39,826 nt of DNA from Flammeovirgaceae bacterium (GTDB taxonomy: Bacteria; Bacteroidota; Bacteroidia; Cytophagales; Cyclobacteriaceae): NCBI GenBank assembly GCA_002691385.1, contig NZHT01000028.1:1-39826 (forward strand), given 5' to 3'. Below the pieces are notes generated by a model. The model was not told where the DNA came from. It did not search any database and saw only the letters and a program-made list of their open reading frames with translations. This document shows positions 1 through 5,124 of this stretch, piece after piece. Within the stretch, counting starts at the first letter, position 1. Every line of letters begins with the position of its first letter. A program made the translations under genes and the position numbers.

Positions 1-1845
<1,845 letters not shown>

Positions 1846-2083: not shown

Positions 2084-3022
2084 ATGAATATTCAACAATT
2101 CAAATATGTTTTGGCTGTGATGGAGTTAAAGCATTTTGAAACGGCAGCAGATGCTTGTTTTGTGGCTCAATCTACTCTGAGTACGATGATCAATAAGTTT
2201 GAAGATGAGATTGGTGTTAAAATATTCAACAGAAAAACCAAGCCTGTTTCCATTACTGCAGAAGGGTCTCAAATTATCAATCGCTTACGTATCATTCAAA
2301 AGGAAATAGATGCACTAAATAATGTCATACAGGAATTGAAAGGAGAATTGATAGGAGAGCTTCGCATTGGTATCATACCTACAATAGCGCCAGACTTATT
2401 GCCTTTATTCTTGTCAAAATTTGCCAATAATTTTCCTAAAATTAAAATGATTGTTCAAGAATTGACAACTCTTGAAATTCAAAAATCATTAAAAAATAGA
2501 ATGCTCGATGTAGGCATCCTGGCCATTCCATTGGATGATGATGAATTGGTAGAATTAAATTTATATTCAGAGCCTTTTTTATTTTATGATTGTAGTAATC
2601 AAAAGTTAAAAGCTAGTATGGCTATTCAAGAATTAAATTATTCAAAACTTTGGTTATTGGAAGAGGGTCATTGCTTACGCACTCAAGTACAAAATATATG
2701 TGAATTGTCAGATAAGAGTCAAAAAAAGGATGTTAATATTGAATTTAAGGCAGGTTCACTAGATAGTTTGTTGCGTTTTACTAAGGCAAGTAAGGGGGTA
2801 ACAATATTGCCTTATTTGGCCTCACTTGCATTGTCAAAATCAGAGCAAAAAAAACTGATACCTTTTAAGTTCCCAACACCTGTCCGTTCTATCGGATTAG
2901 TTACACACAAACATTTTGTCAAAAAGCAATTACTGAATCAATTGCAAGTTACGATTCAGAAAGTTATTTCATCTCTCATCTCACCTAGTCCTTGCAATAA
3001 GCATTTCAAGCCGTTATCATAA
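2084..3022 (+). CDS. oxyR: LysR-family peroxide sensor OxyR
   Basis: Transcription regulator of 312 residues that senses hydrogen peroxide. Residues 1-60 form the LysR winged helix-turn-helix (AADACFVAQSTLSTMINKFE), followed by a linker helix and a substrate-binding-like regulatory domain from about 90. Cys197 and Cys206 lie in GHCLRTQVQNIC with the same spacing of nine as Cys199/Cys208 of E. coli OxyR, and the flanking LLEEGHCLR is also OxyR-like. These are the residues that form the regulatory disulfide, so this is OxyR rather than a generic LysR protein. It is divergent from katG, the classic target. The ATG lies directly behind a -7 box. The C-terminal tail (about 295-312) has no clear counterpart. 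Confidence 0.93.
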   Translation: MNIQQFKYVLAVMELKHFETAADACFVAQSTLSTMINKFEDEIGVKIFNRKTKPVSITAEGSQIINRLRIIQKEIDALNNVIQELKGELIGELRIGIIPTIAPDLLPLFLSKFANNFPKIKMIVQELTTLEIQKSLKNRMLDVGILAIPLDDDELVELNLYSEPFLFYDCSNQKLKASMAIQELNYSKLWLLEEGHCLRTQVQNICELSDKSQKKDVNIEFKAGSLDSLLRFTKASKGVTILPYLASLALSKSEQKKLIPFKFPTPVRSIGLVTHKHFVKKQLLNQLQVTIQKVISSLISPSPCNKHFKPLS

Positions 3023-3078: not shown

Positions 3079-3318
3079 TTATAAGACGCAGGCACCAGTT
3101 GTCCAAGAGGGTACACCAGCTGCCCGGGCTGTACACTCATTGCCATAGGTTTCCAGATTACAACCGCAAACAGGTTGGTATTCTTTTGTGCAGGCGATAT
3201 CTTTCGGGGAAACAAGCAAGCAATCATCTTCTGGATCTGTCTTACCCTGATGGAGACAGGCACTCCATAGAATTGTTGAAGTAATTAATGAGTTGTAAAG
3301 ATGTTTTTTTAAATCCAT
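3079..3318 (-). CDS. Small Kazal-domain lipoprotein or secreted protein
   Basis: Exported protein of 79 residues. A short hydrophobic leader ends at Cys21 (ILWSAC), a plausible but not textbook lipobox because Trp occupies position -3. The rest is a single Kazal-type domain with Cys33, 43, 51, 53, 62 and 77 and the hallmark PVCGCNLETYGNEC and GVPSWTTGAC segments. Such domains inhibit serine proteases in animals; in Bacteroidota they are common on small envelope proteins whose targets are mostly unknown. It is the last gene of the HMA/barrel/Kazal cassette, starting 9 bp after the barrel gene's stop. It converges on oxyR. The domain call is firm; inhibitor activity is not shown. Confidence 0.85.
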   Translation of the reverse strand: MDLKKHLYNSLITSTILWSACLHQGKTDPEDDCLLVSPKDIACTKEYQPVCGCNLETYGNECTARAAGVPSWTTGACVL

Positions 3319-3327
3319 GAATTTATA

Positions 3328-4308
3328 TTATTTAAGTCTTTTTAGCGAATAAAAATAGCGCTGGATACTCACCATGACAATGGGATAAAAGCGAGCGTAA
3401 GAGGTATTTAAGATGTTCGTTCCTGCCGAAAGGTCAATTCTGAGATTAGAAGAGATCACTTTTTGTATTCCCGGGTGAATTTCTATATAATACCCGCTTG
3501 TAAGAGCATCGGTTTGAACTTCTAAGTTAGATCCGTCTTGAGAAACCACGGCAGTTTCGTATGATTTTCCATTGAACTCCAGATAGATATTCCAATTCGC
3601 TTGATCATAACTGCTATATTTTTTTGGATAAAGTAAATATCCAAAGGATAAATTATATTCAAGGGATCGACCATATTCAATAGTTGTATTTGTCATGGCC
3701 ACACTTCCGGTAAATAAGGGTATGTCTTCGCTGTACTTGCCGGGAATAGTAAAACCAGTGGTCAGTGAAACGGCGAATCTTTTTTTAAGATATGTGGCGA
3801 TAAGACCCCCTCCATAACCTTTCGTATCGTCAAGAAGATTAGGTTCAGCTTCATCATGGGCATTTGAAACATTGGACCATTGACCGAAGGTAGCCATTCT
3901 GAAATGTTCATTTGCGTCATCAAATGTTAAGAATCGATATTTGGCGTAAAAGTGAAATCCATTAAATCTCAGTGGATACATTACTCCTTTCTGCGATTGT
4001 TGAGGATAATAAATAGTTTGACTACCCGCATGTTTGTGAGTGATTAAATCACTGGGTAGATTTACTCCATGATGGTTGGAAAAAGAGGTAGTTAGGTAGA
4101 GTGAAAGTCTAGGTGTTACGCCGTACATCCATCTAAGGGCAAACATATTTCTTCGAATGTTTATTTCGTTAAATGAGTTGCCAAATAACCGTACTCCCAA
4201 AACCCTTTTGGGAGTACTGCTTGCAGATTCATTGTGAATAAATAATTCTTGAGCAGATGCAAGATGTAGACTAAAGAAAAAGAAAATGATCCTAAAGGTA
4301 ATTTTCAT
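3328..4308 (-). CDS. Predicted outer-membrane beta-barrel protein
   Basis: Protein of 326 residues with a clear signal peptide (MKITFRIIFFFFSLHLASAQ). The mature part alternates polar and aromatic or aliphatic residues in short segments separated by glycine and asparagine turns, as in outer-membrane barrels, and ends in IQRYFYSLKRLK. Segments such as NMFALRWMYGVTPRLSLYLT and GYGGGLIATYLKKRFAVSLT are typical transmembrane strands. No named family is certain; it resembles the broad transporter/phenol meta-pathway-like barrel group. Its ATG overlaps the HMA gene's TGA by 4 nt, so the two are translationally coupled, which suggests a role in metal handling at the outer membrane (inference). Confidence 0.75.
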   Translation of the reverse strand: MKITFRIIFFFFSLHLASAQELFIHNESASSTPKRVLGVRLFGNSFNEINIRRNMFALRWMYGVTPRLSLYLTTSFSNHHGVNLPSDLITHKHAGSQTIYYPQQSQKGVMYPLRFNGFHFYAKYRFLTFDDANEHFRMATFGQWSNVSNAHDEAEPNLLDDTKGYGGGLIATYLKKRFAVSLTTGFTIPGKYSEDIPLFTGSVAMTNTTIEYGRSLEYNLSFGYLLYPKKYSSYDQANWNIYLEFNGKSYETAVVSQDGSNLEVQTDALTSGYYIEIHPGIQKVISSNLRIDLSAGTNILNTSYARFYPIVMVSIQRYFYSLKRLK

Positions 4309-4826
4309 AAGGTCACAAAATAATGCTCATTTTGATTACATATCTTGTTTTTGGCTTCTGAAAGTTGAGTCTTCCATTTTTTCATTTCACTTCGAGATAG
4401 GAAATTTTTGCCGATAAACTTCAAGATCATTTCTCCTTTCAATTTAGGTTGTTTTACATCTATAAACTGATAAGCTTCATATTCATAATTCCAGCAATTA
4501 TCGGTATCGATTGGGTGTTCTTTAAAATCAAATGAGGCATTTAAATAAGCTACCGAAAATCCTGCATCTATTACTGCTTGTGCGACTTTATCGATAGACA
4601 CATATGCCCCTTCATTGAAGAATATTTCACTGCGATTGTTGTTTAAATCCATTACGACCCGGTTAATAAAATCTAATTTTACTAGACTCATTTCTACCGA
4701 TCTAGAACACATCGAACAAGTAAGTCCATCGATACCCATTTCTACTGACTTGAATTGGCATTGAACAATCCAAGGTAAAAAGATGACCGACCAAAAAATG
4801 ATATATCTAAGAATGCATTTTTTCAT
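4305..4826 (-). CDS. Exported heavy-metal-associated (HMA) domain protein
   Basis: Protein of 173 residues. The N-terminal hydrophobic segment (about 5-22) is a signal sequence ending WIVQCQF. It is followed by an HMA fold (about 27-97) with the metal-binding GLTCSMCSRSVE, Cys37 and Cys40. HMA domains of P-type ATPases and chaperones bind Cu(I), Hg(II), Zn(II) or similar soft metals, but those are mostly cytosolic; here the domain is exported. The C-terminal 75 residues, with Cys111 and Cys163, are unfamiliar. I chose ATG 4826 over an upstream TTG (4868), because the longer form would put 14 polar residues before the signal sequence. It is first in the cassette and coupled to the barrel gene by ATGA. 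Confidence 0.85.
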   Translation of the reverse strand: MKKCILRYIIFWSVIFLPWIVQCQFKSVEMGIDGLTCSMCSRSVEMSLVKLDFINRVVMDLNNNRSEIFFNEGAYVSIDKVAQAVIDAGFSVAYLNASFDFKEHPIDTDNCWNYEYEAYQFIDVKQPKLKGEMILKFIGKNFLSRSEMKKWKTQLSEAKNKICNQNEHYFVTL

Positions 4827-4841
4827 AATTCTTATTGTGAA

Positions 4842-4862
4842 ATTAATAGTGGATCTATTAAT
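4842..4862. promoter_or_regulatory. Inverted repeat upstream of the HMA gene
   Basis: ATTAATAG (4842-4849) and CTATTAAT (4855-4862) are perfect 8-bp arms around 5 nt, about 15 bp upstream of the HMA start. The position fits an operator or the 5' leader of the HMA cassette. The same CTATTAAT core recurs near 39614-39651. Confidence 0.45.
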
Positions 4863-4866
4863 ACTC

Positions 4867-4892
4867 AAGTAATCTTCGATTAATGATTACTT
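4867..4892. promoter_or_regulatory. Second inverted repeat in the HMA/sORF divergent region
   Basis: AAGTAATC (4867-4874) and GATTACTT (4885-4892) are perfect 8-bp arms with a 10-nt spacer, about one helical turn. This is the geometry of a dimeric repressor or activator site. It lies 41 bp upstream of the HMA start and 58 bp upstream of the divergent small gene at 4951. The regulator is unknown. Confidence 0.5.
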
Positions 4893-4950
4893 AAATTTTT
4901 TTTTACTAAACTTTTATTAATTTTAAATCAAGGAAAACTTAAATTCTAAC

Positions 4951-5124
4951 GTGACAAAAAAAATTGCTTATATCTCGGGTGCATTATTTAGTTCATTGAC
5001 TTTGTTGTCTGTTCTTTTCAAAACATTACACCTTCAAGGAGCTACTTTCTTACTAATAGCAGGACTCATGGGATTAGCCCTAGTTTTCATTCCTGCTTTT
5101 TCGCTTTATAAATATTTTCAGTGA
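4951..5124 (+). CDS. Small two-helix membrane protein (57 aa, GTG start)
   Basis: GTG at 4951 opens a 57-codon frame ending at TGA 5122-5124. The product begins MTKKIAYISGALFSSLTLL, has two hydrophobic segments (about 6-24 and 31-52), and has a middle section FKTLHLQGATFLLIAGLMG. The FKxLHxxGAxxLLxxG pattern recurs, as I remember it, in small Bacteroidota membrane proteins and resembles the N-terminal region of GldL-like proteins; this relation is from memory and not checked. An in-frame TAA at 4924 limits upstream extension and GTG is the only reasonable start. It is divergent from the HMA cassette and may share its control region. Function unknown. Confidence 0.6.
   Translation: MTKKIAYISGALFSSLTLLSVLFKTLHLQGATFLLIAGLMGLALVFIPAFSLYKYFQ

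Follow-up and report, generated by a model that had tools for sequence, protein, structure and literature searches.

An exported HMA protein and a predicted outer-membrane barrel form a putative Bacteroidia-wide module that probably handles copper-like metals in the cell envelope

The window, that is, the whole stretch of 39,826 nucleotides analyzed here, corresponds to contig C93 of a source genome of 2.96 Mb assembled in 129 contigs. Three consecutive genes on its reverse strand encode an exported HMA protein, a predicted outer-membrane barrel and a Kazal lipoprotein, in the following setting:

1-1827, reverse strand: katG-like gene, named by eye, open for 609 residues and cut at the window edge
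2084-3022, left of the trio: LysR gene (family match)
3079..3318, reverse strand: Kazal lipoprotein, 79 aa, with six cysteines beyond the lipobox cysteine
3328..4308, reverse strand: predicted outer-membrane barrel, 326 aa, 12 long strands
4305..4308, reverse strand: ATGA overlap of the HMA stop and the barrel start, read from the sequence
4305..4826, reverse strand: exported HMA protein, 173 aa, with signal peptide, HMA domain and C-terminal domain
4951-5124, forward strand: 57-aa frame that resembles a small membrane protein, starts with GTG and is divergent from the HMA gene
right of the trio: LMW phosphatase and ankyrin protein (family matches)

The ATGA through which the HMA gene was originally predicted to be coupled to the barrel gene is present, the barrel frame (4308-3328) overlapping the HMA stop. 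The 9-bp gap described between the barrel and Kazal genes is found in the window but not in the three congeners measured, where the spacing amounts to 59, 70 and 70 bp. Across the katG-like frame, 609 residues of the protein of a relative align in a single frame (92%), and the adjacency of this gene and the LysR gene is retained in all 7 loci of the genus. Counterparts of the small divergent frame are present in congeners (loci L006, L089 and L091).

The two inverted repeats noted previously upstream of the HMA gene proved to be weak (80% over 15 nt and 78% over 18 nt), and one arm of the first, at 4885-4899, lies inside a stretch (~4879-4912) that is absent from 4 of the 6 aligned congeners; being imperfect, A/T-rich and unconserved, they were ruled out as a regulator site. 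Promoter-like and terminator-like sites in this region numbered 10 and 2, respectively, compared with 9.1 and 1.1 expected from shuffles. Inside the barrel gene, a perfect hairpin (12-bp stem, 3-nt loop) occurs at 4191-4217; it is kept whole in none of the five congeners compared and is thus probably due to chance.

The best start of the HMA protein is the ATG at 4826, given that the TTG at 4868 merely adds 14 residues ahead of the signal peptide and that the relatives begin at or near ATG 4826. The HMA domain (residues ~25-99) contains the metal-site motif CSMC and is followed by a C-terminal domain (~111-172). In the window protein, the Pfam HMA model (PF00403) scores 26.4 bits, barely over the cut-off of 24.8; in an alignment of the window protein with those from 29 of the 30 loci that have an HMA match (L014 was left out), all 30 proteins match PF00403 at E <= 0.001, and the two CxxC cysteines, C37 and C40, are invariant (30/30). 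The HMA fold is visible in the AlphaFold2 model (pLDDT 87.4), and the closest folds retrieved with this model are those of CopZ, HMA7, Atx1 and MerP; the C-terminal domain is spanned by none of the fold matches listed. Under the Q-rule of Bacteroidetes, glutamine is expected right after the signal peptide, as set out in PMC5837995. In the window, Q comes next after the signal peptides of both the HMA protein and the barrel, and at the corresponding position of the HMA alignment Q is found in 23 of the 30 proteins, G in 5, N in 1 and R in 1 (L028, with a truncated N-terminus). The signal peptide and the fit to the Q-rule point to the periplasm as the most likely location of the HMA protein, so that the export of an HMA domain with CSMC, as initially proposed, is borne out at the level of prediction. 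A lipobox was considered and rejected, since the cysteine that the window protein has ahead of Q is not conserved.

In possessing the HMA fold and CxxC, the HMA protein resembles the metallochaperones of the MerP and CopZ type (PF00403), with which its model aligns over spans of 67-74 residues (CopZ 6ff2, Z 8.8, rmsd 1.3 over 67; MerP 1osd, Z 8.2), and MerP is termed periplasmic in its NCBIfam model, as predicted for the HMA protein. Unlike MerP and CopZ, it carries an extra C-terminal domain of ~60 residues and has a near-constant partner in the barrel gene, and the CopZ and MerP models match it below their cut-offs.

The outer-membrane barrel claimed in the original prediction is supported by an AlphaFold2 model with a mean pLDDT of 87.2 and a pTM of 0.81, in which we count 12 long strands plus several short ones. 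The top fold match is FapF (5o65, Z 22.1, rmsd 2.6 over 244 residues), followed by the COG4313 channel 4rl8 (Pput2725, Z 20.4, rmsd 2.7 over 233 residues), to which the barrel is 9% identical. Among the 30 aligned barrels (the window and 29 of 32 loci, omitting L017 and L034, which are split or cut off, and L014, which is near L013), none matches any Pfam family at E <= 0.01, the PF13557 (Phenol_MetA_deg) model included, and none matches NCBIfam; a comparison of the barrel profile with the sequences of solved structures yielded nothing meaningful, the best match (E 0.052) being a designed protein. TonB-dependent receptors combine a plug domain with a 22-strand barrel, and assignment of the barrel to this class was rejected given its 326 aa, 12 long strands and lack of a Pfam match.

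Conservation in the barrel alignment points to three regions. The N-terminal segment ahead of strand 1 (QELF...PK), with Q20 invariant in 30/30, ranks with the most conserved parts (mean 0.80); loop 146-163 has a conservation of 0.79 and includes the invariant residues H151, D152, E153, E155, P156, L158 and D161; and N78-H79-H80 (NHH) is invariant in another long loop. Both long loops would be extracellular if the usual topology of such barrels applies to the model, and their conserved residues could serve as metal ligands. Like the COG4313 channels, the window protein is predicted to form a 12-strand barrel and has a conserved N-terminal segment ahead of the first strand. In those channels, according to PMC4493636, the N-terminus fills the lumen, and the substrate of the structurally characterized member is thought to be amphipathic rather than ionic; relatives are described as uptake channels. 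The barrel differs from these channels in its conserved NHH and HDExEP loops, its HMA partner and the absence of a Pfam match (0/30). FapF, an amyloid secretion channel, likewise shares the fold, whereas the partner in the Bacteroidia pair is an HMA protein.

The third product matches Pfam Kazal_1 (PF00050) at 29.4 bits, compared with the cut-off of 21, over profile positions 7-29 of 49, and with its six cysteines past the lipobox cysteine it is the Kazal domain protein originally recognized. One cysteine, at CGC, departs from the usual Kazal cysteine spacing. The reactive loop CTKEYxPVCG is shared with the ovomucoid third domain, the string ACTKEY being identical to that of the ovomucoid variant 1hja_I, and Lys44 (CTKEY) is therefore the predicted P1 residue; with Lys44 in this position, the targets would presumably be trypsin-like proteases. 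Unlike ovomucoid, the product is a bacterial lipoprotein, a type of Kazal protein on which nothing was found in the portion of the literature that was searched.

To what extent the three families travel together was examined with sets of loci (L010-L041) and of genomes (G numbers) that overlap in genomes, so the counts are given separately and are not summed. Among 395 Bacteroidia genomes, the barrel profile matches 45 and the HMA profile 46, with both in 42, leaving 3 genomes with the barrel alone and 4 with the HMA protein alone (barrel matches weaker than E 1e-10 and HMA matches weaker than 1e-15 excluded). The two genes lie within 1.3 kb of each other in 41 of the 42 genomes, the exception being G427 (4 kb), although some of these distances are based on partial barrel matches; in 38 of the 42, they are on one strand with the HMA gene upstream. 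A scan of the genomes with six aligned barrels produced 32 loci, 30 of which have an HMA protein near the barrel, immediately ahead of it in 29; at L032, the two genes are divergent with one gene between them, and at L015 and L035, the barrel has no adjacent HMA gene. With starts chosen by script, an overlap of precisely 4 bases is found at 18 of these 30 loci, and the pair is under purifying selection (dN/dS 0.10-0.33). At L015 and L016, peroxiredoxin-like and siroheme-synthase-like genes (named by eye) precede the module, and at L015, no HMA gene lies between these genes and the barrel.

The distribution of the Kazal lipoprotein is different. Its frame is directly downstream of the barrel in 7 of the 8 barrel-bearing genomes of the genus, that of the window included; at L010 (a contig of G150), the frame is without an evident ATG, and at L012 (a contig of G152), the Kazal gene is a remnant next to intact HMA and barrel genes. 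The trio was found inside this one genus only: a profile of the Kazal proteins of the genus detected no Kazal gene beside the pair outside the genus (0/25 and 0/29 loci, overlapping sets), while it was positive at all 26 Kazal loci from other genera; the HMA-barrel pair is absent within ~1.5 kb on either side of these loci (0/26). The neighbors of these 26 loci include prfA-, DNA-3-methyladenine glycosylase- and NDP kinase-like genes (named by eye). Family-wide, Kazal homologues occur in 66 of 148 genomes vs 7 of 148 for the barrel, and the dN/dS of the Kazal gene, 0.32-0.47 from three pairs only, indicates looser constraint than that on the pair. The neighborhood search thus upheld the expected co-occurrence for HMA and barrel (41/42 within 1.3 kb) and not for the Kazal protein. 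As judged from these sequence comparisons, the functional unit appears to be the HMA-barrel pair, a Bacteroidia-wide module, rather than the trio, and the Kazal lipoprotein a separate, common inhibitor candidate that is a neighbor of the pair in this genus.

Genes around the pair were then compared for links to metals, with 7 loci of the genus (L010-L014, L017 and L031) omitted by design. Six clusters were counted, namely, heavy-metal ATPase, MbnP, MbnH-like di-haem protein, RND pump, RND adaptor and AraC-type regulator, and at least one of these is present at 13 of the 25 loci outside the genus and none at 12. A heavy-metal ATPase lies within 7 genes of the pair at 8 of the 25 loci, compared with 0.18 expected (34 copies over the NCBIfam cut-off in 88.6 Mb), and MbnP at 5, compared with 0.16 expected (38 copies); this excess is overstated, because the Poisson test treats the loci as independent, although several are from close relatives and two genomes give two loci each. 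Genome sizes were rounded for this test, and its P values serve as a rough indication. The cluster names rest on one representative each: those of the P-type ATPase and MbnP (Pfam) are over their cut-offs, that of the RND adaptor is over the RND_mfp and below the CzcB-model cut-off, that of the MbnH-like protein is below its own cut-off, and the RND pump was named by eye. Exporter genes (ATPase or RND) occur at 9 of the 25 loci, and the MbnP or TonB-receptor cluster at 8 (5 and 4, respectively), with L039 also among the exporter loci. An RND-pump cluster, named by eye, and the adaptor are close to the pair at 4 of the 25 loci, a metal context shared with CusCBA and CzcCBA, from which the pair differs in having no inner-membrane pump and in a barrel that is not of the TolC type (a 12-strand single barrel). 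In the window itself, none of the neighbors (katG-like, LysR, LMW phosphatase and ankyrin) is a metal gene.

Within the genus, the barrel is encoded in 8 of the 10 genomes, counting that of the window. A search for heavy-metal P-type ATPases was positive in all 14 control genomes and negative in all 10 genomes of the genus, and the pair is therefore no accessory to an ATPase there. CusA-like pumps over the cut-off are found in 7 of the 10 genomes. In the genome of the window, L123 (2940-10623, reverse strand) carries genes for a CusA-like RND pump, an outer-membrane factor, an adaptor and a thioredoxin-like lipoprotein, all named by eye, and the adaptor contains a CSMHP...CPLCGM motif, also recognized by eye. 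G149 lacks the barrel and possesses an extra full-length CusA-type pump (1123 bits), possibly as a replacement. In G153, the barrel gene at L017 (G153:C7:9167-10140) is in two frames, owing to a real frameshift or an assembly error.

Taken together, these observations suggest that the pair probably handles copper-like metals in the cell envelope, and we propose, with a probability of about 0.58, that it consists of a periplasmic copper-class metallochaperone and its own outer-membrane channel. The proposal is built on features derived from sequence, namely, the pairing, the conservation, the export signals, the predicted folds and the metal neighborhoods at about half of the loci. The HMA protein would be secreted by Sec/SPI to the periplasm, where its CxxC would hold a soft metal, most likely Cu(I); the N-terminal segment of the barrel would probably plug the lumen of the 12-strand channel; and metal could be handed between the HMA protein, docked on the channel, and the channel itself, either way. 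The pair would thereby transport or buffer a copper-class metal at the outer membrane and would, in many lineages, operate alongside other metal machinery (RND efflux, P-type ATPase and MbnP/MbnH-like proteins). The numbers of exporter loci (9) and MbnP or TonB loci (8) are such that gene context does not decide the direction of transport, and we lean only slightly toward efflux or periplasmic detoxification.

The closeness of these two numbers is also an argument for metal acquisition, in which the channel would let in copper, free or as a complex, to be trapped by the periplasmic HMA protein for cuproenzyme assembly. This alternative, which we regard as somewhat unlikely, gains from the retention of the pair in a genus where no heavy-metal P-type ATPase was detected (0/10) and from the description of COG4313 relatives as uptake channels in PMC4493636, but exporter genes are no rarer around the pair, the TonB cluster was named after a single representative that stays below the NCBIfam cut-off even in its best matches, and the genome of the window has genes for a CusA-like pump, an outer-membrane factor and an adaptor. 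That paper (PMC4493636) also bears on another possibility, that the substrate of the barrel is hydrophobic or a peptide, with the HMA fold as a binding or docking module and metal as a side issue: amphipathic molecules or amyloid subunits are the cargo of the solved structures closest in fold, and 12 of the 25 loci are without counted metal genes. The invariance of CxxC in all 30 proteins and the excess of metal genes, present at the other 13 loci, make this quite unlikely.

That all three genes form one system, with metal capture under a protease guard, as the original prediction held, is very improbable. A canonical-looking inhibitory loop and the position of the Kazal frame downstream of the barrel in 7/8 genomes of the genus would agree with such an arrangement; the wider occurrence of Kazal homologues than of the barrel in the family (66/148 vs 7/148), the separation of the two in both directions outside the genus (0/25 and 0/29 pair loci; 0/26 Kazal loci), the remnant beside an intact pair in G152 and the looser constraint (three pairs) argue against it. 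The three-gene cassette was accordingly discarded as a single system, given the distribution of the Kazal gene and its remnant in G152, and no support was found for a guard component at the pair loci outside the genus; envelope metal handling survives as a reading of the pair, through the gene context (13/25 loci).

For the proposed metallochaperone and channel, a further extension can be put forward tentatively: a TonB-independent outer-membrane metal system, in which the HMA chaperone would dock on the plugged channel and gate copper-class ions, the conserved His, Asp and Glu residues of the channel would form the metal path, and lineages without heavy-metal P-type ATPases would be served. 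Little is known of how metal ions pass the outer membrane other than through TonB receptors or tripartite pumps. The pair appears to be undescribed so far, no account of it having been found in the surveyed part of the open-licence literature, and the barrel represents a family absent from Pfam and NCBIfam. With both genes in 42 of the 395 Bacteroidia genomes, it is a two-gene system open to direct deletion and assay. Barrels of ~270 aa constitute a separate, shorter group, and at some of their loci, regulators that begin with an HMA-like motif and other genes of metal-binding type, named by eye, adjoin the pair.
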